Source of the DNA: Haliclystus octoradiatus | Lineage: Eukaryota; Cnidaria; Staurozoa; Stauromedusae; Haliclystidae | DNA length: 64,000 nt | Direction: 5' to 3' | Assembly (NCBI GenBank): GCA_916610825.1 | Contig: OU744446.1 | Span: 19,145,959-19,209,958 of the forward strand | In this document: one piece after another, positions 1,501 through 54,900 of the stretch | Layout: each line of letters opens with the position of its first letter | How positions within the stretch are numbered: position 1 is the first letter of the stretch | Made by a program: the position numbers and the translations under genes | The notes under the pieces: generated by a model | Databases searched by the model: none | What the model was told of the DNA's origin: nothing | Seen by the model: the letters and a program-made list of their open reading frames with translations, nothing else

Positions 1501-4497
1501 CTTGAAAATTTCGTCCAGTCTCGGCTATTTATATAACATTACCTTAATAAACATTTCATTTTCTTTGTTATGTTGTTTTGTACCCAATTTTATAATCAAG
1601 TAGATATTTACTATAAGTAATTTGTAATTTTAATATTTATTTTCCCTTGTAACCTGGAGATGCAATTAAACTATTGCAGAACGTTGTTTAAACCCAAGTC
1701 TGTCAATTTTTTGTCGCCATCCTTTATCTTGAAATGTTTTTCTAAGAAACTTTTGCCGAAAACTAGGTAAAATGGAAGTGTCAATTAATGTAATAAATAT
1801 ATAATGTGGTGTAAGTTATCTTACTGATTAAACATAGAGCTGAAACTTTGATGAGTAGCAAATATAGCATGAGTGTCTGATTTTTGACTTTATACTTTAT
1901 ATATTTGTAGAAAAAAAGGCTGCACTCTGCAGCTTTTTCAATTTAAGCGTTATAAGATTTCAAAAGCGTTATTCGATTTCAGTTAATTAATATTATGTTG
2001 AAAAATACTTTGCTAAAGTTAAAATGACTACAATGTTTGGATGATTACTGAAGCATTTTGGAAAATTTTGAACTAAATATGGTACAGACTTCTGTTACAC
2101 TATTTGACCATTTCAATATATAAGTAGTAACAACATTGAACATAACTTTTAACATTGAGCTATCATGTTTCAAATCCATGCAGTTACCAAAATGAGTAAT
2201 GTTTCTTAAAGTAAAGAAGCATTGAATAAATGTATGTAACATATCTGTATATACGCTTAAAACTAAAATGTCATAATCCCTGTATTCCAATATACTCAGA
2301 ACTGTTAATTTACTGCTAAATTAGTAATTGATTTCAATTACATTTGCTTCCCTCAAAAAGTAATAAATTACCGTTACACCCGCCGTTACAATTACTTTCT
2401 GAAAAAGTAATCAATTACCAGTGAAAAATTACTTGTTTATCAAGGCTTTTTGAATTCTGTAAACACAGCACTCTGTAATGAAATTTATAAATGATTTTAA
2501 GCAGAGAGCAACATCTGGAAGGGTAGATTTTAACTGACAGTTGAACATTTTAAACATATACAATCACAAAAGTAGAAAATAGTTTTCTTCATCATCACAA
2601 TTTATGTTTTTGATTTTTTTCGAGATTTCGGTTCATTTTCCCTACAATGCTTTGCTCTGGATGGCGGCGGCTTTGATCTTTTACGGAAACCTGATTTTTC
2701 AGTTTTCCGACGAATTCAGTTGATTTTTCAAAATTAAATATAGCCTATGTTCAAACGACGAAAGAGGGTTTTCGAATGATGTATACCGTTAAGGATTTTG
2801 AGATGAGCACGTCCAAAGTTTTGAAGGTCATTTTTATATAGTAGTAAAAATAAATGAATTTATAAATCTATAAAGCTATCTATGTAACTATGTAAAAGCT
2901 AGGTAGAAATGAAACGTCAATTAATGATTTTATATATATCAATAATAATTAGCAATGTAAAATAAAGAAAATGTCATTACGTAATATATTTCGAATACAG
3001 CACGAAATATAAAGGAATAATAAGATTGCTGTTCAACTCAAAAAGAGGTGTCTTGACATGAGGACATCTGGAAGTGTATTGCATGATACTGGTGCAGCCA
3101 CAGATGAATAGCCTAATCTTTATAAGTTTAAAAAGTATTGCTTAGTAAAGTTAGATTATTTTTGTTCCTGAGTGAAGTTATTTATGAGGTTTATAATCCT
3201 CTAGTACACTTTTCAAGTATTAAATGTCAAGGCTCTAAAGTTAATAGCAGTATTTTGAATTTAATTTTTTTATGGACAGGAAGCCAATGTAGGTCATACG
3301 CGATAGTTGTTCTATATTCAGTCGAACTTGCTTAATATTAAGCGTGGTGCGAATCCCGGGTGAATTTCAGTTTGGGTCGCCCTCGCATCTAGATGTAAAC
3401 AGGAACCCGAATGGAAGTTAGTCCGCTTAGCGACTCTATCAGGACTTTTGAAAGTAAGGATTGGAAACTCGGGTTTCTCAAACCAGACTTTGCAAAAGCC
3501 GGTCTTTCTGTCGTCTAAACAGAAATTTATGAAAAACCTTGGTTTACAAAAGTCCACTTCCATTTCGCGGTGATACGACCTATAAATATTGGCAACCACT
3601 AGGCCCTGCTTTAGGATAAATTACTATAGTCTACTAAAGCTATCCAATGAATCTGTTTATACAAGATAAATAGTGAATGACATGCATTTAAAAGGTATTA
3701 TTTACAAAAGCAGTGTTAATTCAGTCGGAATTCAATTAAATATGAATAACAGAAGTCATTTTGAATGATTTAAATATAAAAACATACTGATCTGGAGCTA
3801 CAGAATCGAAGGAGTATAAAAATCCAATTTAAACGAAAACTGATAAGAAATACTGGAGTCACAGCGTTTTATTTAGACAAAATAGATAAATCTAGCCTTG
3901 TGTAAACTGATACCCTATCTAAACTTTTTAAAAGTGGACTTTTTAAAGACTTTTGAAAACCCAGGTTTTTGCTCTCGTGTAAACGTAGCCTAAGAAGATT
4001 TGACTATTTATCAAATATCAGTATACTGTAGTTCTTAATATGTACACACACACAACACACCAGAATGAGGCAATTGTTTGATGTAGATGCATGCATCTAT
4101 TTCAAATGAAGTTATATTTATATTACAACCAACAAATGAGGATAATATTTGATATGATACTATCACCAGTACACTCATTACTACTTTACATAACTTCAAC
4201 AATGTAGTCATAATAGTTACTAATAAAAATATTTGTAGATTAACTTAATGTCTTTCATGTAAACTGTTCTCAATAGCAGTCAACACTAACTGGAACGTAA
4301 ATCACCAATAAAATACTTCTAAATTTCAACCAGCTTTCATAAATGTGATATGCGTTCTAAAAATATAAAAGTTTGATTTTAGAATTAGCAATCGAAATGA
4401 GTGGCTTCTGTGCCTAAAAATTAATCATTCACAGATCACATCATGGGCCAAATCCTGTTAGCTTTTGGTAAGTTTGATACTGTTCAAGTAGATACTA
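1501..4497. other. Gene-free stretch with decayed repeats
   Basis: No coding exon is recognised. The block at about 3330-3990 has GC-richer, self-complementary pieces such as a segment near 3540-3570 resembling the reverse of 3930-3975, ending in a sequence resembling a transposon end (CTCTCGTGTAAACGTAGCC). It is probably a decayed MITE, but I could not fix its ends. Around 2310-2430 there is a short self-complementary run built on AAGTAAT/ATTACTT. Confidence 0.3.
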
Positions 4498-4630
4498 CCC
4501 CTGCGAAAAAACAGTTCAAGAATTCATGAACGTTAAATGGCCCCAAATGTTCATGAACTGTTCATGAACTGTCTGTGCGGGTTCATGAACTGTTCATGAA
4601 AATTGGGCCATTTAACGTTCATGAACTGTG
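4498..4630. repeat. GTTCATGAAC palindromic MITE-like element
   Basis: A 133-bp palindromic copy. It starts CCCCTGCGAAAAA, then shows GTTAAATGGCCC and the reverse GGGCCATTTAAC as mirror blocks around tandem GTTCATGAACT units. It shares its left end with the complete-looking copy at 60400-60644. It lies just beyond the 3' end of the astacin gene. Confidence 0.8.
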
Positions 4631-13900: not shown

Positions 13901-15837
13901 TACTTATAAATTTTTTTGAAATTATGACTTGCAGCTTGTATGAGATGTGAAGTTTTGTTTCATGTTGAAATCAATAAACAACAATTCATCAATAATATAA
14001 TCTGAACTAGGTTTCTTGTCTGGACAATGTCATAATCATGCATAGAGTTACATATACTGCCAATCCAATCGACACTTTAATCAAACTGTAGCCACTATAG
14101 GGATCCATAATGGCTGACGATTGCTACCAACCAAAACATGAAAAGTTGCAATAATTTGGGAAATACGTTATAATTTTGGGTAAACAGAATTTTTCTTCAA
14201 AACTCAGAAAAAGATGACTGCGATATTTTTAACTCCACTTCAACTTGTATATATTTATTTATTCATTGTTGTTTTATTAATTGTCTATGTTGATAGAATA
14301 GTATAATATAAAGTATATATAATAGTAGGATGTAGCAATCTTGCAGATTTTTGACTCCTCATGGTGGCTACTTGTGACGTCACAGGCAGTCTATTGCAAG
14401 TCTATGTAATTATATGCAGTAATTAATGCAGCATAAACCCCCTGTAAATTATTTCAGGAATTACTTGGCTGTTCTTAATTAGTTGTTGAACAGATTCATT
14501 ATTCAATGCCCAATTAAATGAGCTGAATTTAAACAAGTAAAGTACATCTTGCATAGCCTTACCAGTAACAATATTTTCCCATAAGATTTCTATGTTTTGA
14601 TCACGGTCAGGTCGACTTTGTTCGTGCCAGAATCCAAGTGAATGCAAAACTTCATGAATTATGGTATCTTCTTTCATACAGGCATCAGCTAAATAGATGT
14701 CTTGAGGTCCAGCTGACCAATATTGTTTTCCAACATATGATGCACAGCTTGAAGCAACAGATTGTCAGTAATTTAAGCATATGATTTATAATTGCTATAC
14801 AGTGACCTATAAAACTTCCATACCTTCTATGATAACTTAATCGATGAGCTTGTAATCAACTGTTCACAAAAAGTTCATAACCATTCATCAAACAATTAAT
14901 TAATCAAAAACTATTCATGAAGGTGAAATAGAGGAACACTTTTCACGAACAATGTTCCATTCCACACTCATGATGGTGTTTTTCTTGGGTGAGAAAGTGT
15001 TGCTGGATATTAATTTTTATTTAATTCCAACTAAACATTATAAAAATTGGAAATTGTATGCAAAAATAAAGGCTTAAAAAAAATTAAATTCCCTGTGGAA
15101 AATGTTCATGAACATTAAATAGCCCAATTTTCATGTTCATTAATGTAGTAAATGATATTTGTAATAAATACCACAAACTATATTTATGATACTGTACATC
15201 TTCAGTATTGGGTCTGTTAGATTGATTAATTGCAATTTATCTATCGCAACATTAGTATATCAGTTGCTAGAAACAAGTGAAAATGATTTACTACATATAT
15301 CATTGAACATTACCCTGTCCCTGGAACAAATTTTATCCAAATCATTTCATTCACTTGTTGTTTGAATGATAAACATGACACATTCTCTATTGACCGCATA
15401 GCTTTCAAGATCACATCTGTGTTGCTACCTAGAAAATATCAACGGTATAACGGTCTTTGCAGCATATATTATATTATTTGGAAAGCTATTTGAATGTCTG
15501 AGAAATTTCAAATGGAGGATTTCCCTCATTTCACTACCACTTAGATTGATCCAACTTAGAATACGAGCTCATCAGTTCATTAACTCCTGATCAAACGTTG
15601 ATAGAAACTAGGTTAGAATAAGAGTCAAAAATGAAACATGCTAGCATTACGCCACTTCAAGTTTCAAAACAGAAGGTGATCATCAGGCGATCTATTTCAA
15701 CTAGACTACAAAAATTCATCCTTATCCTATATGAGCTACTATGTTTTACAGTTGAATGGAGAATAAACAAGTAACTATACAATAGCGTAATCAATAACCA
15801 ATCAACTGTAAAACATAGTAGCTCATATAGAATAAAG

Positions 15838-15881
<44 letters not shown>

Positions 15882-17339
15882 AAATAATGTTTGTTTTAAT
15901 TTATTATTATAATTGAAAATGTTATAAAAAGAACAATTCAACAGCAGTGAACTAATCACTTATTTCTAAACTCACTCAAATCAGCTGCAATTTCATAAGG
16001 GATCACTTTGGTCCTCCATGCAAAGTTTCTATTTCTCTGGGCATTTCTTTTTAATGAGTGCAAATTGTATTGATTATTTGTTCCATCTTCTGGAGGAAGT
16101 AGGATATCGCTTTCGACTACACGAAGACCTTAAAAGTAAAACACATTAGTCTGTTCCACTGTTGATACTGCGGAATTTCACTTTTAAGAAATACACCACC
16201 CTCCCTCTTAAGTCCCTTGTACCACTCTTCTATCGCTAGATGCAATGGTGGATGAAATTGCTCTCTATTGGTCTCATGTGCAATTAACACTGTAGATCAA
16301 AAATTTCATTGCATGCTGATTTTAATTATCATCAAGATTCAGCTATGCTATCCATCTCTTCATATCTTGGTATTGTCTGTGAGACCCTCAATCAATGATG
16401 TCCAGATAGATTTAAGACTTCATTGACGTGTGGAGGACTTTCCTCACAGATCAGGAGATCCGAAGCCTGAGCTTTTTTCTTACATGTGCGTATGGATGGC
16501 GATATTGTTGTGGCATAATAGATTGAGCTTATATCCTCTTGGCGACCTGATTCATTAGAAGTATATTAAGAAACGTGAAACATGATGGTTAAATTATCTC
16601 AATTAAGCATCAACTTTTTAAACAGAATTTTTCTTTAGGTTTTCTGTACCTCTTCTTATGCAAAGAATTACGTATAAGTTGAATAGATTGCCTGATTATT
16701 GCCTTGGCTGAAATCCAGAGTAGAAACGTGATTGTCTGATTTTCTGATAAATTACATTTGATTATAACTTAATTTTCTTGACTTTTCTAGTAAAATGTAT
16801 GTCAAAGAAGATTCTGATAATCGCCTGAAATTGGATCTTGGTTAGAATTGTGCATGTAAAAATCAGACGCTTAGACTATGTGCGAAATTGTAGTAGATAT
16901 TTAGTTTGAATAATGTTTGCTTATTGGTGTTTATTTAACTAAAGGTCAGGCGCGCGACGTGGATCCCAATTTTGATGACATTTTGACTGCTTTGAATTTT
17001 AAAATGAACCCTTCCATATACAGAAAGTATTTTTGTTTCATTGAAACTGTACAAAACATTGATAAGAAGCTTAAAATAAAGTAATAGTAGATGAGAGTAA
17101 CCAAGGGTAAATTAATATGTTCTTTAAGAAGATGTATTGTATTGACGAGTGATAAGTTATGACAGTAGATTCTAATATAATTAATTATATTAATCTTACT
17201 CTCGTTTTTTTAGGCACTCAAAGACTTCAAAGTATTTGACATTATTTATGAACTTACCTGCTTCGCTAGGATCAATCAAAGACTTGCCATGGCATGAAAT
17301 ACTTGCCCAAGCACTCAGAAGTAACAAAATTATGGCCAT
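4970..17339 (-). CDS. Secreted astacin (M12A) metalloprotease, astacin-TSP1-TSP1-MAM-WSC-like
   Basis: Twelve exons join in frame to 654 residues: 17339-17258, 16128-15976, 15428-15314, 14747-14563, 13470-13252, 12561-12385, 11712-11533, 8152-8006, 7185-6920, 6369-6282, 5922-5744, 5143-4970. Residues 1-17 are a signal peptide (MAIILLLLSAWASISC). The short propeptide has ESDILLP at 33-39, whose Asp35 fits the aspartate-switch motif that masks astacin zinc. The catalytic domain starts near NFAWRTKVIPYEI and holds HEVLHSLGFWHEQSRPDRD (zinc ligands His148, His152, His158) and the Met-turn SIMHY with Tyr207, so it should be active. Two TSP1 repeats follow (about 253-370; the second has WSPWNDCSTTCGPG), then a MAM domain over three exons (about 372-537) and a WSC-like domain (GCY at the start, YYGECW later). 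It is likely an extracellular matrix or developmental protease. An ATTAAA lies 51 bp past the stop. A consensus donor near 5004 allows an alternative C-terminus. Confidence 0.9.
5744..5922 (-). other. WSC-like domain, first half (astacin gene exon 11)
   Basis: This exon encodes EQWNYEPVGCY and ends QEETIK. With exon 12 (5143-4970; FGIEYYGECWYG, then QCLSGVGVQHT) it forms one cysteine domain of the pattern GCY-x(n)-C-x(n)-FGIxYYGECW-x(n)-C-x-x-VG. That matches the WSC-type carbohydrate-binding-like fold seen in animal secreted proteins. Acceptor CCAATAG and donor AAG|GTTAAC give phases that fit both neighbours. The name WSC-like is by pattern; the exon itself is well supported. Confidence 0.7.
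6412..6610 (+). repeat. tRNA-derived SINE
   Basis: A pol III promoter pair is visible: an A-box-like TAGTGGTTAGGACGTTGG at about 6423 and a B-box GGTTCAATTCC at about 6464. The body follows with CAAGGGCAACCGACC and CACCCAGATGAAAATAG, a layout known from tRNA-derived SINEs of many invertebrates. It is inserted in the intron between the second and third MAM exons, antisense to the gene. I see no clean target-site duplication. Confidence 0.75.
6802..6863. repeat. (CACT)n microsatellite
   Basis: About 15 near-perfect CACT units in the intron between MAM exons 6920-7185 and 6282-6369, about 60 bp from the exon border. Likely polymorphic in length. Confidence 0.95.
8646..9697. mobile_element. Non-autonomous hAT-like DNA transposon nested in copy A
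   Basis: Terminal inverted repeats are TAGGGCCAAAC at the left and GTTTGGCCGTA at the right; TAGGG-type termini are typical of hAT elements. Inside each end are AGAACATT-rich subterminal repeats (8665-8760 and 9615-9680), a second hAT habit. The insertion interrupts copy A at a point where copies B and C read straight through TTTTAGG; the flanks (TGTTAAG and CTTTAGG) look like a decayed 7-8-bp target duplication. No transposase ORF is present. Positions 9385-9433 hold CTTATAC and TATACGGTA motifs like the end of a pogo/Tc1-type element, so another insertion may be nested within. Confidence 0.65.
9731..9938. repeat. Hairpin MITE nested in copy A
   Basis: The ends AATAGGGTCAAATCAT and ATGATTTGACCCTATT are perfect inverted repeats and the complementarity continues imperfectly for about 70 bp on each side, leaving a short loop near 9810-9865. 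It sits where copies B and C carry about 25 bp of ordinary element sequence. Confidence 0.8.
10500..10862 (-). repeat. tRNA-derived SINE (tRNA-like head plus body)
   Basis: Read on the minus strand, 10862 to about 10780 gives a tRNA-like head: A-box TTAGCTCAGTTGGCAGAGC and B-box GGTTCAAATCC at tRNA spacing. The acceptor stem does not pair and the anticodon stem is poor, so it is not a working tRNA. The body continues to about 10500. A decayed relative at 16190-16460 shares TACCACTC(C/T)TCTAT and CACTG(C/T)AGATCAA in the same order. It lies in the long intron before the MAM exons. Confidence 0.7.
11184..11333. repeat. Hairpin MITE with ~50-bp terminal inverted repeats
   Basis: The left end runs ATTGATGTTCCAGACAAAG and the right end, reversed, ATTGACGTTCCAGACAAAG; pairing continues through GTTATGTTACATGAT. 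The centre carries ATATCACTCTTGTGAGTGAT. A related scrap (AGAGTGATGTAATCCCTTA) lies at about 11490, right beside the second TSP1 exon. Confidence 0.85.
13609..13856. repeat. GTTCATGAAC-family element, diverged
   Basis: Contains repeated AGTTCATGAACTG units and the family bracket CCTGTGAGAAAA on the left. It is in the intron between the two C-terminal catalytic exons of the astacin gene. Smaller scraps of the same family occur at about 6085-6150, 6652-6758, 8198-8230, 10436-10500, 10861-10913, 14858-14950, 15090-15145, 50331-50392, 54988-55122 and 63646-63706. Confidence 0.7.
15649..15695 (-). ncRNA. Decayed hammerhead-like motif
   Basis: On the minus strand: CGC, CTGATGA (15686-15680), a degenerate stem II, GAAAC (15665-15661), TTGAAG, then GTG and GCG. 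Stem I is CGC with GCG, replacing TTGC/GCAA of other copies, so the third pair changes from U-A to C-G. The nucleotide at the cleavage position is G, which hammerheads do not cut after, so this copy should be inactive. Confidence 0.4.
15723..15834. repeat. 37-bp-arm inverted repeat beside (ATT)n
   Basis: Arms 15723-15759 and 15798-15834 are near-perfect reverse complements around CTACTATGTTTTACAGTTGA, with a 38-bp spacer. An (ATT)n run follows directly at 15839-15877. Located in the intron between the propeptide exon and the next catalytic exon. Confidence 0.85.
15839..15877. repeat. (ATT)n microsatellite
   Basis: About 13 ATT units directly after the inverted repeat; this resembles the 3' tail of an insertion. 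Confidence 0.95.
16190..16460 (-). repeat. Decayed SINE copy
   Basis: Shares ordered short matches with the body of the SINE at 10500-10862 (TACCACTCTTCTAT, CACTGTAGATCAA), in the same orientation, but the tRNA-like head is unrecognisable. It lies in the first intron of the astacin gene. Confidence 0.4.
16688..16730 (+). ncRNA. Decayed hammerhead-like motif
   Basis: TTGC, CTGATTA (core G replaced by T), TGCCTTGGC hairpin, TGAAAT, then GTAG and AAACGTGATTGTCTG. The downstream sequence resembles that of the copy at 37651-37700 (CGACTGTCTGA), so it belongs to the same dispersed family. Core mutations should make it inactive. Confidence 0.35.
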
Positions 17340-28300: not shown

Positions 28301-29487
28301 AATAACAGTGATATCGATAGATTATATGTTTAAAGGAGTTCCTATATTTTATTATTACAATACATTATTACTGTTTATTATACAATTGCTATCGTGATTT
28401 GGTTTATCTCAACTTATTACTGGTATTCAATATTCATCAAGCCTGGTTCAGATTATTTACAATTTCATTACAAGATATTGATACTTCTTTCAATTTTCTA
28501 TCGATACATTGTGCGTAAGAACACCGATATCATTAATTTGCTCTGAAGCCATTCCGAAATCCCGGGCTGGAATTGTAAAAATTAAGAATATTGAGACATA
28601 TTTGTTTTTGTTACACAAGTAACGAGTTTTACGCCTTCGCGTAAGGTATAATTTATAATTTGAAATAAGGTATTCATCATATACAGTATTTCGGGTTTGA
28701 TCACTGTCCGAAAAATGTCACCAGCGTAAGCATTTGTTGTGAAATGCAAACAAAATATTTAACTGGAACTTCATTTAGAACAATGTCAGTCTGAATTTAT
28801 ACAAAATTAGCATGTATTAGCATGTATCTTACTTCCATTCGTAAAAGCAAAGAAATAATGACGATGTTGTATTTTCATTCTGCGTTTTGCTAATAGTTAT
28901 TGATCCCGCAAGTTAGACTATGTTAACAAAACAATAAAGCTATTCTGCGGAAAATGAGTTTTTCGCTCCGCTCTATTTAATTAAGGAAGAATCAAGGCAA
29001 CAATTAAAGGCAAAATGATTTCCCGGGGGAATACGAATAGTTGAAGATATTAAACTCCAAGATCGTTTAATATATTAAAAAGTTATGCGTGGAGACATAA
29101 ACATCTACACGTCTACACACCATGGCTATTTGTGATACGATGCGTGCAAATGAGGATTACCGTTATCCAAATTCAGAGCTACAGAGTATAGTAGATGTCA
29201 TTATGGGAATATGGGATCGTGTCATGGTGGTATTTGGAGGGTGGATAAAATTGGAGGGCAGAGGAGGAGCCATATGTTAAATTTAACTAATTTCATGAGT
29301 ATAGGAAATATATATAATGGGAAATTTAAATAAACAAAAGAATAACTATATAATTATATTCGTTATTTGTCTTTATTGATTGTGAGAGTGCTCAATGTCA
29401 TACAGCAGAGCGTGTAATATATAGTTGAAAATAGTCAAAAATTTGACATTCATTTTGCTACTTAAAGTTTCATAAATTCTTTTTCAA
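25391..29487. other. Gene-free stretch
   Basis: No exon recognised on either strand. A short (GAGAC)n run is at about 25430-25447. A 93-codon minus frame at 26686-26967 is open but unrecognised and lacks a plausible gene context. Confidence 0.35.
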
Positions 29488-29530
29488 TAAATTGCCTGAT
29501 GATCGCTTGGGCGTGAAACACATTGTTAGG
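29488..29530 (+). ncRNA. Partial hammerhead-like motif
   Basis: AATTGC, CTGATGA (29496-29502), stem II TCGC-TTGG-GCGT, GAAAC (29515-29519). The 5' half of the motif is intact, but the 3' stem I strand (GCAA in other copies) is not found after the GTT that follows, so this copy is probably dead. Confidence 0.4.
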
Positions 29531-32483: not shown

Positions 32484-33803
32484 TCAAGATCCTTGTCGAC
32501 CTTTAATAACAACCTCGCTAAGCGGAATATCTCCATTAAAATCATCGTCATCTTTAGAAAGTAGACCGTTGGCTCTAGGAGGTCTTTCCGGTGATTGCTT
32601 TGTCAAATGATGTTCAAGTTTGATAGCAAATTCTTTATCACTCCAGCGTAATGAATCAAGTAAATAAATCTGGCGTGCTGTTAAAATCTCGTGAATAGGT
32701 GAATCTAGAAAGATCGGCCCTTTCGGTATACGCGAACAGAATGATTTCATTGAAGACATAATCCATCGAACCAGAAATAATATAACGTCGATAACTGATA
32801 TAACATTGTATGATAGCATTAATGGTGAGATGAACATAAACCAGTATTGGGCAATTTTATTTGAATTCATTTCCATAATAACACGCATGAAAATAACGGC
32901 ATTCGCATCGTCACCGAAGGCACTGTATGTAATATCACACATTAGAATAGGTGGTAGCATAAAATCTCCAGGCGTTACTAAATTTTGAATTCTCGCAAAC
33001 TCATAGTCGTTACTAACAACGGGGTCTTTCATTAACCATCTATAAAGATCAGGTATATAACTCAAGAAACGATTTTGAAAAGCACGATCAAAATAATGTG
33101 TGACGAGAATCATAGCAATCATGGGAATAATCTTGATCACAAGAGTTAATAGCATTCGACTGAAACTTGTATTACAATAGCCACGACGAGTAAAATATTT
33201 ATTAGTAACTTGTTTTATCAGTTCATGCGGACTTCCTTTGGCGTTTTTCACATGATCTATCATATTAATACGATCAGTGTTCACATAATCAAATAAATAC
33301 GGTATAGCCATAATCATTACAATAGCAGCTAATACTTGATAGAGCCAATGATGTTGTCGATAGTAAACGACATGAAACGGTTCGCAAGAATCTTGATTGA
33401 TCATTGTTCCATCACCATCGGTTGCTTCGCACATAGACCCAAGACTTTTATTCTTATCCTTATGAGATTTTAAAAATCCACTATCCTTTAAATTTCTTGG
33501 TATACCAACACCCATGCCGGATAGATGAACGTTAACAGGATCCAGTAGTTCTCGGTAGAGATATGCTCCCTTTGACCAACATAGACCGTGAGCTAAATCG
33601 CCAGACAGAGGAGCTTTGTTATCTCCGATATCGGTTGTTGAAACTTTTTCATCGCCATATTGATAGAAAATCAAACCAATGAATAGCATCATACAAACTG
33701 GAATATGCTTTCGTAGCAATTGAGCAAGCATACCATCTCCATCTTTAGAAAAACCTAAAAGTTCTTCTGCTGCCCCACGAAGACTGGCAAGTACGGAAGC
33801 CAT
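32484..33803 (-). CDS. Innexin-family channel subunit
   Basis: An uninterrupted 439-residue frame encodes a four-pass membrane protein of the innexin/pannexin superfamily, which forms gap junctions or hemichannels. Membrane spans are about 34-49 (IPVCMMLFIGLIFYQY), 154-174 (after YYRQHHWLY, the local form of the innexin YYQWV signature), 217-237 and 320-345. The first extracellular loop has CWSKGAYLYRELLDP, matching the family's CWxxxTYxxP region, and the second has the PP-x(3)-CD-x-x segment (LPPILMCDITYS). Cysteines are at 37, 75, 125, 140, 210, 289 and 356: three in loop 1 but only one in loop 2, whereas innexins usually have two in each. The cytosolic tail is acidic and short. The TGA is followed four bases later by a consensus donor (ACG|GTAAGT), suggesting a 3' UTR intron. 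Lack of introns in the coding part is common for some innexin groups. Confidence 0.9.
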   Translation of the reverse strand: MASVLASLRGAAEELLGFSKDGDGMLAQLLRKHIPVCMMLFIGLIFYQYGDEKVSTTDIGDNKAPLSGDLAHGLCWSKGAYLYRELLDPVNVHLSGMGVGIPRNLKDSGFLKSHKDKNKSLGSMCEATDGDGTMINQDSCEPFHVVYYRQHHWLYQVLAAIVMIMAIPYLFDYVNTDRINMIDHVKNAKGSPHELIKQVTNKYFTRRGYCNTSFSRMLLTLVIKIIPMIAMILVTHYFDRAFQNRFLSYIPDLYRWLMKDPVVSNDYEFARIQNLVTPGDFMLPPILMCDITYSAFGDDANAVIFMRVIMEMNSNKIAQYWFMFISPLMLSYNVISVIDVILFLVRWIMSSMKSFCSRIPKGPIFLDSPIHEILTARQIYLLDSLRWSDKEFAIKLEHHLTKQSPERPPRANGLLSKDDDDFNGDIPLSEVVIKGRQGS

Positions 33804-36800
33804 TGTGAATTAAAATGAAATGTGGAACTAATCCACAGGTGGATCGTAAGAAAGGGATTGAAATGTATTTTATACGGTGAAGTTGAACTTCAAATAGATT
33901 GTTTGTTTTTCAACAACATTAATGTTGGCACTCAAGCCAGTAAAACGACACGCAACGAATGAAGAGCAATTCAACTACGGCACTGGTTTTTATACTGGGG
34001 AAGGTGCCCGTCTATCGTGCGTAAACAAGTTGTATTGTGCGTACACGTGAACAATTGATTTTCCCCTTGTGACGTATTATCCCGTGAGTCTTTGCATTGT
34101 CTTGTCTTTGTCTGAAATAAGATCTCGTTTGCATTCCAATGGTAAATAATTAGTAAATTAGATAAAACTACTTCCAATGAATGTTTGCAATTTTGTGTTA
34201 ATTCACAACACTTTTCGCGATAAAATGCTGAGCAACCTCCCTTTTGTGCGACGGTGGCATAGCGTAAGATCATTATGTACGTCGTATTGGGTAGCTGGTG
34301 TTTCATTTCTCTGCTCTATTCGTCCTTGGACAATTGGACATTTATATACGTAGATTGGTTGTTTTTTAGATAGGGTACCGCGATGGTGTTGATTGCTGAA
34401 AATAAAATCAATGTTTATGAATATTTCACCAGCATATCACTAAAATAGATGCGATGTTTCTAAAGTGATATCTTACATCAGATTTGAAGGCCCTCGTTAG
34501 ATAGAACAATGCGCACAAAGCATGGTTTTATGAACAGACGTTCGATTTCAAAATGCCTAGAATTGTAATTAGAAACAACAGTGCTGATCAGATGTTGTTG
34601 AATAGGCCTACCGACCGCATCTTCATATAGTGAAGTCAATAACGCTTTAATTTTGAACGTATTTATACTGCTCTCAAAGCATTAATCAGACATAAATATT
34701 CTAGTGTCAAGTCACAACTACTAGCATAACATTTTATACAAATATAGGTTTTTAATAATCGACATGGTTAATTCGAGCATGATTCGAGTTATGTAAGTTT
34801 TCTCGCTAACTACTGTATTGCGCAAAAGACAACGGCAATTATATAACAAAAAGCAAGTGTTGTCGACGTTATCAAAGGATCAATGACGCTGCGCAAAACG
34901 TATTGAAATTCGCGTAAAACGGATTTCACGGCTCAGCAATAAAATTGCTGAATTGCATCATTCACACGATCAGCAATTCCAGACAATACTATGCAACCAC
35001 AGTCAAAATGGAACAATATTTCTAGTTTGTATTCGAGCGGAACATTTAATCATAATGTTTCACAAAGTGAAGATACGAATCAATATTTGTTTCCAAAATA
35101 TCCCTAGCGACCGTTTACAGTATTAGCACCAACAAACATGATTTGTGGGTGTATATTAAAGTGCCTTATCAAAGATGACACGTCATAGCTTCAATGAATA
35201 CCGTGAGTGATCATGATTCACTATATTTTGATTTGACTACGGCTGTTGTTATTTATGGGACGTAAGAATCCCACTTGATCGGCTCAGCTCAGCAAAAATG
35301 AAAAATTGATTAATTTCTGTCAATGGATGTAGCCTAATAATGATTGCTTTCGAAATTTTGATTCTACACCTTCAATTACATTTTGATTTTGATTTTTCGC
35401 TGTCAAACACTCCTTCTATTAATGAGACAGCCGTGATTTTCAAAAGTTGAAACATAGAATGAATTCCTAAATTGAGTTATACAACTCGTAGCACTCAGCC
35501 GTTCACGTTTTATATTCCTATACGAGATTGTATTATGACTTGTCTTGGCATTGAATGGGGCATATTAACATCAATGGCACAGGGTGAGCCAGTGTGTATT
35601 TTGTGAATGGTCTACTCTCTTCTAGTTTTCAGACGTGTGGAATTTTCATTGATACATTCTGTCATTAATACCGCATCACGTCGTCTGGATTACTGGAAAC
35701 GCTGCTGTACGTGGTGCCGCCTTGACAGGAAAGAGGAGGGATTAATTTGTGAAGATTCTGATTTACTTGGATTTAAAGTTTTTATGTGATTTTATTCTGC
35801 ATATAGATAAACTCCCAAAAACAATATTATCAGAATTATTTTTATCTTTCTTTCTCCGTAATCGAATTTCCGTTAATTGGTAAACACCATTTTATCCAAT
35901 TCAGAATTTTAACTTGATAATTTTCAAGATTAAGAACCCGTATGCTCCGTTCAAAATATTTATCTTGATATTATTTGTTTGTTCTACCCGATTTGCAAAT
36001 GAAGGAATATGCTCCAATATATACAAACATTTGAGATATTAGTCAACGGATCGTTGATTTATCATTAATTGTTTGAGACCCTATAGAAATGCTATTTTAT
36101 TCACGTACGAGTAATTACAGAACGGGGGGTCTTAATATTGTTTCATGCATAGATTTTTCATATTAATTGTATCAGTATATTGTATCAATGATTATTGATA
36201 AAGAGACACTTAGAACGTGGTGATCTTGAAATCTATCTTTACGTTTACATCTGAATAACATGAATTATAAAAATTCAATATATAATTAACCACTATTAAA
36301 TACGGGGGAGCGAACACTGTCAGTTCTGTTTCAATTTTAAACCACATATATAGGTTATAGGCCATGCCATGGTTAGGCTGAACTGAAAGTCCAACAAAAA
36401 CAATTCAAAACTCATGAAAATATTCAATGACGTGAATATGGTCAACTTTTTCTTACGTTGGCGCATGTTTGATACTTTGTAACCTATCTATATGCCTGGC
36501 TTTGGATTCGCAACAATTGCATTCGTAATTTCAACATTGAGCAATATTTAATGTGGTCTCGAAGTATGTTTTAGCGAAATTTCTGTTGCAATAAAGTTTC
36601 AAAATTACAGAGAGAAACTTTGAACTCCTTCTATAGCGAAATACCTGCAAATTCGATTGTGAGTTTTTGAGCTGATGAAATGGACAAGTCACGTGACTAT
36701 GCCCGTGGACATGTTTAGTTAAATCACGAGAGAAGTCATATATGGCTGATTCATAATTATTTTCAAATAAATTCTATTTGAAGGGTACGCGATCAATAAA

Positions 36801-37650
36801 CACTCCATTCGGATCATTTGTCAGCTTACAACTTGTAATTAGGTAATTAACAACAAGTTAAATACCGCAAAACGATCATTCAGGGGCTATTTACTAAAAT
36901 AGTCTCCCATTAAAAATACAAATAATGATCCTAAAATTGTTGTTTTGTTCTTGCAGCCCACGTTCTTTCAAATGCAATTATAAGACCGTAAAGGTTGCCT
37001 TACCCTCTTTGTATATTCAGCTAATTTGATTGGAAAACTCCCAATTCTACTGAATTGCATAATCCATTGAGAAATACTTGATCCCAGACTATTTTAATAC
37101 ACTGCCCCCCCTCCGTATTTTGGTTACACAAATCAATTCATCTACATTGTAATATCGTTTGGATTGTGAAATACTACTGTATTGATTTAGCAGCAGGTAC
37201 TGTACTTATTTCTAACCAGACCATTATAGCCGTTATTAGCCGTTATCAGTACTGCTCAGTGAACCAGGGACTGCCTTGGACTGTCATTCTGTGAATTTAG
37301 CTAGGTCAATATTATATAATATTCATATATTATTTTAATAATCACTTTGATACTGTGGGACATATAGATCGCTTGCGCTTAGAGAATATACTTTTCTCTA
37401 CTTGTCGAATAATTAGTGCAATGGTTGACCTGTTTGAGCGATTTGCTTATGATCTTTATTCCTGGCACCAGTAGGACTGTATAAGCCACTCGTAACATTC
37501 GATCAATATAATCCCTTTCCAATTGTAAAAAAATATATATATAGTTAAGTACAACAATTTCTAGTTAAAATTATAATATTGTAAAACGTTGTCTTACTGA
37601 TCAAAAATAGGGCTCAATGCAATAAATACTTGGATGATAATAACAATCTG
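33804..37650. other. Gene-free stretch upstream of the innexin gene
   Basis: No exon recognised. The 111-codon minus frame at 33971-34306 lies just upstream of the innexin start and has no recognisable domain. The region next to 33803 should contain the innexin promoter and 5' UTR; no certain core motif is visible. Confidence 0.35.
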
Positions 37651-37700
37651 ATTGCCTTATGATCGCTCCGGCCGCCGGCGTGAAACTTGAAGTAGCAAAT
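37651..37700 (+). ncRNA. Hammerhead-like motif, one core change
   Basis: Order on +: ATTGC (stem I, 5' strand), CTTATGA (37656-37662; the core G of CTGATGA is T), stem II TCGC...GCGT, GAAAC (37682-37686), TTGAA loop, GTA (37692-37694), GCAAAT (stem I, 3' strand). TTGC pairs with GCAA exactly as in the copy at 39531-39580. Stem III would be 2 bp (AC/GT), short as in retroelement hammerheads. The core change likely abolishes cleavage. Confidence 0.5.
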
Positions 37701-38474
37701 ACGACTGTCTGACTATTATTAAAGTTTGAAAATATTTTTTTGCAGCAATCAATGAGAAAATTATTTCGTATTAAAACAGAGTTTTAGATTTAAATCTATA
37801 TGCTGATCAAAAGCACTGTGAGAGTAAGGCTTGACTGATTTGCTTTTGCAGATTATCTGAGCAACAATGACTTTGATAAGCCACAGTATGACCTGCACAA
37901 GAGACCATACACCTGCTTTGTCTATCTCTTTTATATCACAATCTTCTCCATCTTGCACAGGCAGTGTTTTGTTGAACAGAATCAGCAAGCATTTCCCAGA
38001 CGGACTTAACAGTACATAGATTATGCATTGATATTTATCATCGTCTATCGTTGCGTAGGTTCAAGTTCATTGTAGATATATACAGTGACTCTTTATATAT
38101 ACATGCCTATTCGTAAAGGAAGCCATTTTTACAATACTATGATTTTAAATATTTTTATGTCGAATAAACCAAGTTGAATTCAAAATTATTTATTTGAATA
38201 TCTTTCCATTTTTTTTTATCTTATTGACTGTAGCTATATTATAGTTTTCTGTCGGCCATAATAGAAACGAAATATTTGTGCTTCACGTCACTTCCAACCC
38301 AAGCTTAGTGCATTATGGCAATCACTGTTGCGGTTTATCGAATCATTCCATTATTACATTGTTTTCATAGAAATCTATTTTGGTCATTTGGCATTTCTAT
38401 GGAGATTGCTTGTGGAGTATTTTAAGTATTCGCAATAGTGTCCTTAAAACGGAATTTAACAAAAGTCAACATCC

Positions 38475-38816: not shown

Positions 38817-39530
38817 TCTTTTGAAAAGCGTTCTCTTTGGCAAAGATCAACAAATGGATTATCAGATCATCATATTGCCTCTGTCGGAATATATCACTGC
38901 ACCTTGAAGAACAAAAATCTCAGAGGAAGTTTGATAATGGCCTATACAGTCTGATAAAACGATATCATCCAACGAGAACATTCTTGATAACAGTATAATC
39001 CGTCTTCTTTGTTCATTTTAAATTCAGATTCAGACAATATTATATTCACCTGTTCATCTTATAGACTTGTTTGTGATCTATTTAATCGTTATTATTTGTT
39101 TCTTCACTAAGCTAGCAACTAATCTTTTGTCGATCAATATGAGATGATAGAATAAGACCGAAACTGTTACTAACCCCATTGTTTTATTATTATCCTCTGC
39201 GCCTTTCATCGGACATCATTAATAAATAGAGTTAACAATATGTGTAAAATAGTCCCCTGGCGTTGTGGATAGAAATATCTGTTTTTAGTGTTCACATCAT
39301 CTAAGGGTCAAGGATTGTCAGATTTCAAGGTCACTGTTTAGATCAAATCCTATAAAGACTGTAAACGAAATTGAGCTCATATAGTTGAGTATTATTGAAA
39401 AATACCATATATGATACGATACTAGTAGTAATACCAAGGTACTTGTGTTGTCTTTGCTGTTTCAATAGTGCTCGATGCCATAAATGCAGAGATGTTTAAT
39501 AATTAATAAACGAAAAAATCAAACATTCAT

Positions 39531-39580
39531 ATTTGCTACTATTAGGGTTAGTTTCACGCCAAGGCGATCATCAGGCAATT
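39531..39580 (-). ncRNA. Hammerhead-ribozyme-like motif (best copy)
   Basis: On the minus strand, 5' to 3': AATTGC, CTGATGA (39574-39568), T-CGC-CTTG-GCG-T (stem II, 39567-39556), GAAA, CTA-loop-TAG, T, A, GCAAAT. Stem I is TTGC/GCAA (39578-39575 with 39536-39533). Stem III is ACTA/TAGT (39552-39549 with 39541-39538) with a 7-base loop. The residue at the cleavage position is A (39537). All invariant bases CUGAUGA...GAAA...UH are present. The one departure is a U-U at the position of the usual G-C that closes stem II next to the core. The layout is type I, the form found in Penelope-like elements and metazoan retrozymes. Confidence 0.6.
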
Positions 39581-42500
39581 TAATCTGATTTGATTTAATT
39601 TGATACGATACTATATATTTTATTATGCCTAATTATAGGGAGGAGAAGAATTTTAGTGCTTACTCACAGACTTTCATAGCGAAAACTACTAAAGGATAAT
39701 TATTATATTTACTTGATAAAACAGCAGATGCTTTCACCAACAACACCATCATTGATATCTGATGCACTATAAACTGAACTTGTTTTGAACATACTTTCAA
39801 AAAATATGCTGTTCTACTGTTCTTACTGTGACGACCAACAAAAATATGTTTTCAATGAAATATGTCTATTGTTTTCACTGAAATATGTCTATTGTTTCAT
39901 TGAAATATACATTATATACAATGAGGTCTACGAATGTTGCTGTTCAGCTGACAGAAATTTTCTGATAACGCCAAGTACCAAACACGAGAACTAATTGCAG
40001 CAAGAAAACGTTATAGCAATTTTGCTGCATTTGAAAAATTCTTTAAATCCCTAATTTCAATTTATGCATCTAACACATAAATGATGTCGTCGAAACATCA
40101 ATATATTTAGTACATATACATGTGTGGGCCATCCTTCTGTGGCCTGATTTCATTTAACTAATTTGAATATATATCATTCAATAACCAACTGTAAATGATG
40201 TAAGAAAAAAAGGGAAATATTTTGCCATAAAGCTCAGTCAGATTTCCCAGAGGAAGCAAGCGCGGTTTCATTTCTGGCAAGATATTTAAAATGAACGTCT
40301 GACATGAACCATGATGCGTATCAATAGAGAAAAAGAACTCCGGGGGGGGGGGGTAGGGGGGCTTTCAAATGATTTCGTGTGAACTGATGTATGGCAGTAA
40401 AAGTAATTGCAATATTCTGCAATCTGCTCTGTATTACCAATTTACACACAACAGGCATACAAAATAATAATATATAACTTGCAGTGAGATCTCATTTTAT
40501 GAATATTATTATTTGATATTTGGGGATGCATACAACATAAAGTCGATACCATCCACCATAGTTCCGCACTATGATTTTTATTGCATTAGACGAAAATACG
40601 GGATTAGACGAAAGACTATTTCTGATTCTCATATTATTCTCGAGGATTTGATTACTTGAAGCCCACATATAAAAAACTATAATTCCGTATAAATCCCACA
40701 TACAGCGCAATTCAATTGAGGTGTGCACCTGCAAATACGGCCTATACTATATATATGTGATTATGCTATAATACTACTATTACTATTCTTTTCTATATGT
40801 AATAAAGATGATAAAAACAACGTGGATATAGTTGGTTATAACATATCCAATAATATAATGTTAATATTTTATTATTTCGTTTTATCTTATATGATACAAG
40901 CCTATGTCAATGAAACAAAATAGTCATGAGAAGGAATTAAAAATGCAGAACAACACTGATAATTAATTTCAGTTTTGATAATTAATCGTTACATACATGT
41001 AAAGCATAGTGAAAAGGAGATAATTGATACTCTATTGTACTACATGTTTCAAATCAAATATATTTATAAATATGGGTCATCCATAAGTACATTTTATGTT
41101 GATTACATAGTTCAAATGAAATAAATATGGATTGTAAGTTAGGTATTGCAGTTAATGAACTTGTTTTCACAATGAAAGGCATTGGTATGTAAATATTATT
41201 TCTGTGTCGGTTGAGTTAATCTCAGCATGAGTCATTGAGTGATATTGGTAATAACAACAGGTGATTCTGAAATTTGATACAGTAAATTACATAAATGAGA
41301 GACCCAAACTCTAATATTTTATCAACTTTAGCCAACTTCTCACAGAGAGGACACATGTCTATAATGGTCACCATTCACATACCTTATATAATAATGATTA
41401 AAGTAAACAATGTGTGGACACAGTGGACGTTGTCAATGTATGGCACATTATAAATGTACATTTCGACAAAGGGATAAAAGGCAGCTAAAATTCTAAATTA
41501 CAACTCCAATTTTGGATTTGTAGGCCTACAACTTACAACTGCTTGACGACTGAAAAGTACCACACTAATTCTCTGAATTTGTTTATTTGTTATGGGTCAA
41601 ATCTCTATGTGTGCTGTGTGGATAACACTAACAGAACAGAACTGCTGACATGAAACGGTGACACAGTAAATCTTTTCTTGCAACGAAGAACAGTTCATAA
41701 CAAATCAAGCTAATATTGGCGATTCAGTGACACAGTAATCTCTTCTGCCAACGATGACTTGATAACAAAGTAGGCTATTTGGGATTATGATACTTAAAAG
41801 AAAACTAAAAGTAACAATTGCCATCAGAGTCCTGTAAGCCCTCATGCAACAGGGTAAAAACCACGGTAAAAGTGACTTCGACAGACTTCACATGAAGCAT
41901 TTAAACATTCAAGTTGTAAAAGACTTACCGAGAATTGTGTCTTCTGTTTGTGATGTAAAATGGAGTATTGTTGGACCTCATCTCCTTCTAGGCATATTGG
42001 AATACTTTTGCAAAGTATGAAACACTTTTACGAAATATTGGCAGCCATTAAAATAAAGCATTCTCTAAAATTCGTGATGTTGCTAGGCATGACGGGATAC
42101 ACCAAGGAAAGCAGTTTATTTTCACATAACTTCCGTCGAAATATCACGATTTTGGAAATTTTAATCGCAATTTATGAGCAATTTATAGCATTTTAAACTG
42201 TAAAAACAAAACGTCGGATAGCCAAAGGCCTATAGATGACCCAGAACCGTATAAGAAGTTTGGAAAGTGCTCTGCGGAAAAGGAGTTTAACAATAATGAA
42301 ACAATGGTGATTTGATCACCGACACGGTTTGCGTATTATTATTATTAATTGTACGTGGTGTACTTTGTAATACTTATATATTGCCCGGGATATATTGTAC
42401 TGTTGAGTTTTAATTGAAAACAATATATTCTAAATACACACAAAAAAAATATTTTAAAAAGAGCTAGTCTCAATGTAAAAAAGAAAGTGGATAAATGTTA

Positions 42501-51453: not shown

Positions 51454-51648
51454 GACAAACAGTTCATGGACTTCACAAACTTTCATCAATGTTAAATGGT
51501 CCAATGTTCGTGAACTTTTTCACAAACAGTCATGAACTTTACAAACTTTCACGAACTGTTTATGATCCCTTATAAACAGTTCATGGACTAGTTCATGAAT
51601 GTTAAATGGCCCAATTTTCACGAACTTTTTCATGAACTGTTTTCACAG
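51454..51648. repeat. GTTCATGAAC-family element, diverged
   Basis: Several blocks of CAGTTCATGGAC, TGTTAAATGGCCCAATTTT and TTCATGAACTGTTTTCACAG. It lies between the deacetylase pseudogene and the 3' end of mre11. Confidence 0.75.
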
Positions 51649-51990: not shown

Positions 51991-54900
51991 TTATTTGTGT
52001 CTTTTCTTTGTCACTTGCGATGACCAAACCCTATCACTTTCATCTTCTTCACTTTCATCATCCTATAATACAAAAGGTACCCATTAAGATGATTGAAGTT
52101 GTGTATACTTGTTCATGTGACAGTAGATGAGCTTGGGTGTTACCTTATGGAACACAATCTGAGTGATTGCTCAAGGCATCCATTTCCCGAAGGTATCAAA
52201 TCAGTGTTCAATGATTCTAGCTTTTCTGTTATCAATACGATATTCATGCTCATTTACGATCATTACAAACAAGTGCGGTTCGATGTTAAATTCATCAAAA
52301 CCGATTCTACAATTTTGAAGCCCGATCCGATATAATTTTTCAAAATGCCCATCCGATATCAGGAAAAATTGCAACAATACAATGATATTATGCAAACATA
52401 ATTTCTAGTTGATGAAGATACAACAGAGGCAACAATGCATACACTATACAGTAATACACATTCTAAAATATCACGAAGGTTTTCTGCGATCTGATTGGTC
52501 GAAAGAGCGTGCATGAAATCCTAGGGTAAAACATGGCTCCGAAAACCGGGAAAAACCGCAAGCTTCAAAAAGTTTGATCTGTGATAAAATACTATAAAAT
52601 ACAGACTTTATAACTTTTTGATAACAATCCAATAAATATCTCAATAATGGCTATGATTTACAAAACGACATTTAGCTCAAGATGCTTATATTTATTGAAA
52701 AGCGTGGTAAATGAGTTCTTGGTCGTGTAACATGCAAAATAAAAACACCGAATGAAAGACAATTATAGGCTACGCTTTTCAAGGTAAACCTAAAATTTAA
52801 ATAACAATTACTGCATTAATTTGCTAAAGAACTATTGTACCACCTACATTACAGACGTTCCTGTATATGTCTTTCTTTATTCGACAATATCTATCTTGTT
52901 GTGGGATTCTCTTTGCTCGGTTTATGAATTGAAATTGAATTTTAAATTGTGAATTCATGAATTGAAAATTCACCGTCGAATGAGATTCCGACATTTGTTT
53001 TATTTTACAAAAGGGTGCCACATGCTAGCAAATGTTTGTATTCATATTTACTAAACTCGAAAATGTTGGGAGACATTGGGGAAGCTAAAAATCACTCGCT
53101 CGGAGCTCATGATTTTTTAGCGCTTCATTCGTGTCTCCCAACATTTTCTCGTTTAGTAAATATGAATACAAACATGGCAAGTATGTGGTAACCCTTTAGT
53201 AATACACACTATTCGTCATCATAAATGCATGGGAAAGATTTGTTGAAATAATCTAGATGTAATAACCACAATTGTGTATAAGATAATTTCAATTCCCGAG
53301 AGGATACATCTTTAAAATGTAAAGAGTGGCTGTCATATTGGATATTGGATCTAACCTGGATGCGATGAAAAGATACTAAAAGACTTACAATTAACTGAAT
53401 GACATTTGATGACTGCTTCGTACTTTTAGTAGCCCTGAAAATAAAATGCATTAAACATAATTTACAAGTCATCATATCTAATGAACTTAGAATTATTTAT
53501 GTCCAAGAATTGTTAATATATAAAATGAACCTTTCATAATAAACTTTTGCTATATGTAATACATTAACCCAATTAATAAATATGCTTGATAGTTATCAAT
53601 TTCATTAATGATAGAGATGGCTTGGAATCAGTGATCTATCATCATTGTTGTTTATATATCTTGCAAGTACAATACTGAATTATAAATTTCACCAACATTG
53701 TTATTATGAAAGACAGCGGACAATTTTACCTTGATTTAGTTGATGACGTTGATTTACCGTTTCGCCTTGTTGAGCTGTCTTCATCTGAGTCCTAAAGTCG
53801 GAAGAAGCACACAGTCGCAGGGCATCTATATTTTTCATAACAAGGTGTGTTACATGATATTGAGTCACTTAAACTATTACAGGCTGTGGATTTCAGTTGC
53901 ATACATGAAGATAGTTTGCATTAAAATTAATGTTCTCTCTCTCTGTGAACAGGATGCCACTTTCCGATATCCGCTAGCAACTGATATCCTTGTGAATCCA
54001 TGCTAAATTAACATGGAAAATACGCCTTTGCCCTATAATTGAGTGGGACTGATTCATTCCATTACCTTGCCAATATATGTCCGATATCATTCCTACTTAC
54101 CTACAGTAGTCTATATGGGGAGGTAAGCATATTTGAGCAAGACAAAAATTATACTCAAATTAAAATATACAGTTAGAGTGAAACAACCATAACTTTTTTT
54201 AATTAAAATATGGTTCCAGCTGAACAATTTCTGGCATATTTGTTAATTTTTAAATTTCATCAAACGCTAACCTTGTGCATATTAAAGTCAGACCGTGATT
54301 ACAACACCTCAAGTAGGACATAATTCAATCATAATGCTAGACTAGGGATGAGAACATTACGGATTCTTACATCGTCATATCCATCACAAAAACATGATGC
54401 ATAAGAAAGTTTACAGCGTGAAAGAAAAAAATACTGATTCAATGTGAACGAATTATACAATGCTTGAATTTTACCTCTATCACAAAACCTCGTGTTTTGT
54501 CGTTAGAAACCATAAATGCTGGAAAAGAGGAGAACAGTGGAGAGCATTCAGAAGGAAGCAAATTGAAAGGTGAAAAAACTAAACATGATATGATATAGCT
54601 CAAACTCACAATCCATGGTTTTAGACGAGCCTTGCTTTGCCCCCCTACCACGACCACGTCCTCTTCCCCTTGTGCTTGCACCTCTTTGAGAAGATCCTCT
54701 TGCACGTCCTTTGCCTCTTGCTCTACTGGCAGGAGCTTTTGAAGTAGAGGCATTGGCTTCTTCATCAGAATTATCATCATCATTGTCATCGGAATGAGCC
54801 TGTGAACCTCCTCTCAGGTTCCTTGCCTCTTCTAAAGCCTAGAAGAATAAGCACAGCATCATTAATGTGTATTTTGTAACCTATCCACGTCAAAAAGAAG

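Follow-up and report, generated by a model that had tools for sequence, protein, structure and literature searches.

The closest described relatives of the motif reported here are the hammerhead ribozymes of Penelope-like elements (PLEs), assigned to type I by Cervera & de la Pena 2014 and by Lunse, Weinberg & Breaker 2017, both as cited in extracts of a 2020 review (PMC7761336), and the original prediction for this DNA, which had stated that PLEs carry such hammerheads, is at one with print in this respect. The PLE hammerheads as described in those extracts are minimal type I motifs placed in pseudo-LTRs, with thousands of dispersed copies in animal genomes, and in all of these features the motif studied here resembles them. 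They usually do without the non-conserved part of helix III, whereas here a 3-bp stem III (ACU/AGU) is found, and here the pair 10.1/11.1 is mostly U.U, a difference judged against the known set as the review extracts describe it. A natural hammerhead that may start its stem II with a U10.1-U11.1 mismatch was reported by Perreault 2011 (PMC3088659, in extract), the only paper found in the literature on hammerhead ribozymes with U10.1; the mismatch, which sits at the foot of stem II there as here, is called surprising in that paper, and most of the matched PLE copies in the present genome have it. Both PLE hammerheads and the natural U10.1-U11.1 mismatch are thus already in print, and U.U as a majority state seems unusual, known PLE hammerheads being compared through PMC7761336 only.

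Two PLE systems described in part elsewhere bear on the anatomy of the copies. The Penelope elements of Adineta vaga, for which self-priming has been proposed, share with the present ones a pLTR-ORF-pLTR layout, a shorter inverted pLTR set head-to-head, a tail on one inverted arm, short target duplications and palindromic junctions, but they exist at very low copy number, in contrast to the thousands in Haliclystus octoradiatus, and their target-site duplications are of 8-10 bp, whereas the flanks shared here run to about 11-15 bp (which may take in a few element bases) and to 12 exact at the copy studied (extracts of PMC3846280, in which a hammerhead is not discussed). PAc, a Poseidon element of Anolis carolinensis, has in common with them a hammerhead near the ORF start and, as proposed for the present copies, AT-rich targets and reverse transcription that begins internally, at an AC-rich site with two start points; in PAc that site is a stem loop, and both strands are cut and extended. 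The PAc ORF begins within the hammerhead, whereas in the long-ORF locus L092 the motif starts about 180 nt before the first ATG of the ORF (extracts of PMC11167929). The sequence that follows the motif was considered as a start of the ORF and ruled out, the box in L092 lying upstream of the ORF and being without an ATG.

The motif and its insertion

The window, as the whole 64,000-nucleotide stretch analysed is called here, contains on its minus strand a motif that is very probably a type I hammerhead of small size, carried by the pseudo-LTRs of a PLE family, element and fold being judged jointly. Its parts, and those of the insertion around it, are as follows.

39532..39579, minus strand: hammerhead motif (covariance model R1, 50.9 bits, E 6.8e-12; bases read directly)
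39537 (A17) and 39536, minus strand: predicted cleavage site, between these two bases and within the motif
39578-39575 / 39536-39533, minus strand: stem I, UUGC / GCAA
39574-39568, minus strand: CUGAUGA core
39567 and 39556, minus strand: U10.1 and U11.1
39566-39564 / 39559-39557, minus strand: stem II, CGC/GCG, with loop CUUG
39555-39552, minus strand: GAAA; stem III is ACUA/UAGU
39424..39600, minus strand: solo PLE end (pseudo-LTR plus tail), 177 bp, boundaries taken from the 12-bp repeat
39412..39423, no strand: target-site duplication TGATACGATACT, left copy
39601..39612, no strand: target-site duplication TGATACGATACT, right copy
39467..39494, minus strand: box matching the GCTCTG...GAGCAC element (by eye, one base off)
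39424..39457, minus strand: 3' end ("tail"), AC-rich ACAACACAAGTACC and then TTGGTATTACTACT, placed by the coverage drop of the unit

From 39579 downwards the minus strand reads A-UUGC-CUGAUGA-U-CGC-CUUG-GCG-U-GAAA-CUAACCCUAAUAGU-A-GCAA, with every type I hammerhead core position there and the three helices in type I order; it departs from the textbook form in its very short stems and in having U.U at 10.1/11.1. Re-reading the sequence confirmed all the bases that had been claimed for 39531..39580. The 4-bp stem III described at the outset holds for this copy and fails for its relatives, in which stem III is of 3 bp and the loop mostly of 3 nt. Loop III of the present copy has a 6-nt insert, CCCTAA, equal to one telomere-type hexamer, and the version with this insert occurs a single time genome-wide at up to 2 mismatches.

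By blastn 39426-39587 is 91% identical over 162 bp to the unit at another locus (L001). The perfect 12-mer TGATACGATACT occurs twice in the window, on both occasions bordering the insertion at 39424-39600, which is judged recent because this duplication is perfect. The GCTCTG...GAGCAC element appears by eye to be common to several PLE subfamilies. The copy at 39424-39600 is very probably a 5'-truncated solo PLE end.

Further PLE ends, in various states of decay, lie elsewhere in the window.

37650..37712, plus strand: decayed PLE end with hammerhead (G5 to U, expanded stem II; R1 47.1 bits over 37651-37699; blastn 81% over 63 bp)
37579-37620, minus strand: opposite-arm relic of the preceding copy (blastn 86% over 42 bp)
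29330..29519, no strand: inverted dimer of the PLE end (blastn 85% over 149 bp and 90% over 48 bp)
29330-29472, minus strand: long arm of this dimer
29472-29519, plus strand: short arm of this dimer, with hammerhead (R1 24.0 bits over 29491-29530)
16679..16756, plus strand: decayed PLE end (G8 to U; matches the unit of a subfamily at 88% over 67 bp)
15614..15694, minus strand: decayed PLE end, UCGC/GCGG subfamily (matches the L071 unit at 88% over 81 bp, E 2e-24; R1 28.9 bits over 15648-15691)
1797..1905, no strand: relic of an inverted PLE-end dimer, arms 1797-1844 (minus) and 1852-1905 (plus), with no recognisable hammerhead

The model R1 consists of 22 rows from other loci, one of which (L001) shares the core of the 39531 copy. 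At 16687-16727 it gives 9.6 bits (E 3.2), which is below significance, and the copy at 16688 is kin by DNA despite that score (88% over 67 bp, E 2e-17). All five copies with which the original prediction was concerned are related by DNA alignment, the reversed window giving 0 matches, and the kinship it proposed for the four relatives therefore stands; an intact core is found in the 39531 copy only, and the other four of the five appear from their bases to be decayed. By eye, the copy at 37651 has G5 changed to U, that at 16688 has G8 changed to U, that at 15649 has lost the integrity of stem II and carries a G at position 17, and that at 29488 is without the 3' side of stem I. The region 37579-37712 as a whole is the relic of an inverted dimer. 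The compensatory change from U-A to C-G seen at 15649 proves to be a trait of a subfamily, present in the intact UCGC/GCGG copy at L071, and the suspicion that pairing was selected is thereby borne out, but in the window copy the next pair is lost. At E<=1e-3 the L092 and L093 proteins, used as queries, detect no similarity to a PLE ORF in the window.

Other features of the window stand apart from these copies. Long nested inverted repeats occupy 58161-58622 (also 57916-58857), with 199-nt arms at 95% and 139-nt arms at 88%, and an Rfam MIR821 match at 58261-58523, below the gathering score of that family, probably reflects the palindrome at 58161-58622. A dispersed repeat family is present at 8219-8642, 10050-10215, 52459-53208 and 56497-57122 in inverted and direct copies that are about 78-95% alike, and arrays of a TTCATGAACTG-type palindromic repeat lie at 4518-4628, 51482-51640 and 60398-60646 and at other loci of the genome too. 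On the minus strand, the open frame at 13232-13663 matches the astacin peptidase family in its C-terminal part (Pfam PF01400, E 1.8e-16), and 32484-33809 is an unbroken frame of 441 aa with no Pfam match at E<=0.001, the look of which we take to suggest an innexin-like membrane protein.

Copy number and the carrier element

Searched with a CTGATGA..GAAA pattern at up to 2 mismatches the window gives 41 matches against 33.1 expected, a number reached in 8 of 100 shuffles; the window alone does not put the motif above chance, but the genome does. In the 262-Mb assembly of 33 contigs a 28-mer running from TTGC to GAAAC has 1,438 matches at up to 3 mismatches, 719 on each strand (the exact equality being an oddity), and its reversed control has 0 on either strand. 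A descriptor of core plus pairing finds 79 matches in 193,972 bases from 52 sources, namely the window and 51 loci every one of which was fetched on account of the motif; the reversed version of this DNA gives 0. The U.U core pattern, which fixes only the core, the U.U and an ACU/AGU stem III, has 4,452 matches genome-wide (1954+2498) against 2 in the control (1+1), distinct sites being fewer than 4,452 since some minus-strand sites are listed twice with alternative gap lengths. The G-C version of the pattern has 762 matches (379+383; control 0) and the U-A version, laxer by one base, 455 (212+243; control 2+0), all three figures being counts of pattern matches and not of distinct sites. With the 150-nt unit as query there are 1892 first-look candidates in the genome, and the best 40 of these, which were scored, include full-length matches at 98-99% identity.

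A large PLE population bearing ribozyme motifs, which Rfam does not detect, is in this way confirmed from raw sequence. The series of U.U, G-C and U-A versions amounts to a natural set for probing the role of the hammerhead in PLE transposition, which the extracts of the 2020 review (PMC7761336) call a "mystery".

The assignment of the carrier relies on both the unit and the protein. Coverage of the unit by 29 other copies falls from 28-29 to 0-1 at one AC-rich point, which is its 3' end, as judged from four query copies and 30 copies selected by their match to the unit, and the upstream ends of these 30 copies vary, as with 5' truncation. A string farther upstream is shared by 11 of the 30, one of which (L041) aligns no further, and this string runs into the end of an ORF in L053, L035 and L042 and not in L046. 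When the GIY-YIG-like C-terminus was used as query, 2281 candidates were returned, and 150 of these were scored, all of which match. Among the 12 top loci, taken by protein similarity with the hammerhead not considered, 10 have a full hammerhead core on the same strand 311-362 nt past SKHIW; of the remaining two, L083 has one core substitution and L090 is without the core at that place.

Three loci have long ORFs. L092 encodes 711 aa (from ATG) with a G-C hammerhead either side (861 and 3304, plus strand) and L093 encodes 714 aa with a U-A hammerhead either side (968 and 3517 in minus-strand numbering); L091 has a hammerhead on one side only, and the ORF therefore lies between pseudo-LTRs in two of the three. 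About 340 of the 801 codons of the L091 ORF are simple repeat. The L092 and L093 proteins are 58% identical and carry FDIxNxY, YRDD, a CNCR..C..C cluster and a C-terminal NYIG..R..H, of which we take YRDD, FDIxNxY and NYIG...R..H to be motifs of a Penelope-type reverse transcriptase and a GIY-YIG nuclease. Neither ORF matched a reverse transcriptase or GIY-YIG nuclease family of Pfam or PHROGs, and a sequence search with the L092 ORF found no related PDB chain. That the motif would mark the ends of a small retroelement, as had been proposed, is borne out in its PLE form by the protein-picked loci and by the two-sided hammerheads of L092 and L093, and this carrier has apparently been active recently and is abundant.

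Pairing in the stems and the U.U mismatch

Across subfamilies stem I occurs as UUGC/GCAA, UUGU/ACAA, CUGU/ACAG, CCGU/ACGG and UCGC/GCGG, and stem II as CGC/GCG, UGC/GCA, CGU/ACG and CAC/GUG. In 22 representatives, picked by hand from 58 distinct motifs, two-sided changes in stems I and II number 27 against 8.7 in shuffles, 91.7% of cells are paired against 84.1 shuffled, and the covariation score is 0.333 against 0.174, a value that 0 of 500 shuffles reach and that compares with 0.019-0.113 when the 3' partners are slid; these shuffles preserve column make-up and not relatedness, and the further pair types, at 9, are fewer than the 10.5 in shuffles. With loops removed, 24 composites give 23 two-sided changes against 7.6 and a score of 0.298 against 0.180 (0 of 500), these being kept from 42 distinct composites of which the 18 dropped were mostly one-base variants, at least six with a broken stem I. 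Over all 42 the stem I positions 1.1 to 1.4 are paired, G.U counted, in 38, 35, 33 and 37.

A permutation of stem I in 18 composites, found among 20 loci picked without regard to stem I, is weak when G.U is counted, with 65 of 72 cells paired against 59.3 expected and 66 as the highest of 2000 permutations. Under strict Watson-Crick pairing in the 24 composites the observed values at 1.1, 1.3, 1.4, 10.2 and 10.4 are reached by 6-19 of 5000 shuffles and that at 10.1 by 55, with no signal at 1.2 and 10.3, and 1.5 is unpaired in 19 of the 24. Stem III is invariant in the set because the search pattern fixed ACU/AGU. Paired substitutions among genome copies, which the original prediction had named as a test, are accordingly present in stems I and II, and the covariation of these two stems points to pairing under selection.

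At 10.1/11.1 the 22 representatives have U.U in 18, U-A in 2 and G-C in 2, and the window copy has U.U; the caveat raised at the outset, that U-U replaces G-C there, is correct for that copy. The usual G10.1-C11.1 pair is absent from it, although the pair is not strictly defining, a natural U.U variant being in print. Such a mismatch would be expected to weaken cleavage but need not abolish it.

Two hammerhead-like strings seen on the way differ from these subfamilies. Downstream of the PLE end in L039 lies CTGAAGATGACATAAGCTATGTCGAAACGTC, a hammerhead-like string of PLE type in which stem III is almost absent and the bases of which suggest another PLE family in the same genome. The other, at L052:1811 on the plus strand, differs from the PLE subfamilies in that it has A.A at 10.1/11.1 and a stem I of 7 bp, and it may be due to chance.

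Single-strand folding is no better than in shuffles, with z of 0.39 for the window copy and -0.92 to 0.73 for five others. Rfam found no hammerhead in the window, at gathering scores and at E<=10, nor in a 150-base stretch, and in the genome none of RF00163 (Hammerhead_1) among the 73 of 24,130 candidates that were scored, a result that is uninformative since 0 of 14 control genomes matched. Background scores in a covariance check had been put forward as an outcome that would tell against the motif, and background is what the check returned; the G-C copies of L092 and L044, used as a positive control, likewise go undetected by these models, and because of this insensitivity the background is not decisive.

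Insertion anatomy and competing readings

Pairs of neighbouring units within 700 bp, of which the fetched loci have 44, are arranged head-to-head in 29, tail-to-tail in 9 and in tandem in 6. Across all fetched loci 24 of 25 head-to-head pairs consist of one long arm, with the GCTCTG box, and one short, the call requiring an exact GCTCTG (a decayed long arm counts as short) and a few pairs possibly combining unrelated neighbours. An opposite arm is present in 14 of 30 copies and absent from 16, and in 12 of the 14 dimers the short arm stops at unit position 81-85, the main arm continuing as far as the query does (150-153). Stretches shared between the flanks of the 14 dimers average 11.2 nt, compared with 7.0 after shuffling (at most 10.8 in 200 shuffles), several of these flanks being of low complexity and the clearest being those of L031, L039, L049 and L050. 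The dimers look like single insertions because their flanks share more than shuffled ones do.

This anatomy bears heavily on two other accounts of the units. A non-autonomous retrozyme, made of tandem 150-350-bp units whose transcripts self-cleave and circularise, would suit their small size (about 165-177 bp), the type I hammerhead, low G+C and very high copy number, but close pairs are mostly inverted, the cleavage site is not at the unit ends, those ends are common to elements with a long ORF, and the single unit in the window is enclosed by a target duplication; we regard this account as very improbable, and the retrozyme form of the earlier proposal is not supported by the 6 tandem pairs in 44, a count from fetched loci only. 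Still less credible, to the point of being nearly negligible, is a terminal-inverted-repeat DNA transposon or MITE with a fortuitous resemblance to a hammerhead. Inverted head-to-head arms are indeed frequent and pair flanks do share sequence, yet the arms are unequal in all but one of the 25 pairs, single copies are common with varied 5' truncation, the stems covary between subfamilies, and the units enclose a long ORF that carries YRDD and GIY-YIG-like motifs.

A third account leaves the PLE assignment as it is and competes with activity, in that the fold would be a relic, a signal or protein-binding hairpin of the PLE end that lost self-cleavage when U.U replaced G-C. The position of the U.U at the most conserved pair of stem II, the absence of a folding preference and the silence of Rfam are in its favour, as is the report that hammerhead mutants of PAc left insertion in vitro unchanged (PMC11167929, in extract). 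Set against it, the core and both covarying stems persist with U.U across many subfamilies, a natural U10.1-U11.1 hammerhead exists and in the extracts of PMC3088659 this mispair supports more cleavage than any other, and PAc cleavage requires protein according to the extracts of PMC11167929, such that an unstable naked fold is no disproof. On this balance the relic account is rather doubtful, though a serious contender, and self-cleavage of the motif is somewhat favoured. More tentatively, and a little short of an even chance in our estimation, U.U has replaced the top-conserved pair of stem II in most of these PLE hammerheads and been kept through diversification and recent copying as a selected, probably protein-assisted variant; if this is true, sister families with U-A and G-C in one genome offer a ready-made comparison.

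Insertion ends in the PLE copies do not coincide with the hammerhead cleavage site, and cleavage may play no part in making copies. The arms run through the hammerhead and not to that site, and the template is therefore probably uncut RNA, as likewise reported for PAc of Anolis (PMC11167929, in extract). A two-sided, internally started reverse transcription would fit the unequal inverted dimers. The endonuclease of the element would open an AT-rich target, and reverse transcription would begin inside the RNA at the AC-rich tail and proceed back through the uncut hammerhead, often halting or jumping at the near-palindrome just upstream of it. The jump would go to another cDNA, one that had started earlier in the RNA and from the opposite end of the target, which would yield the short arm, and the joining of the two cDNAs from both target ends at the AT-rich near-palindrome would give dimers of the kind observed. 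As for the hammerhead, it would probably trim or separate PLE transcripts, being weak alone and better with the element protein or as a dimer.

Short inverted dimers of the PLE end fold as long hairpins at L092 3550-3695, where there are sub-threshold Rfam matches to MIR7504 and mir-982, and inverted dimers of this type are a possible source of false microRNA annotation.
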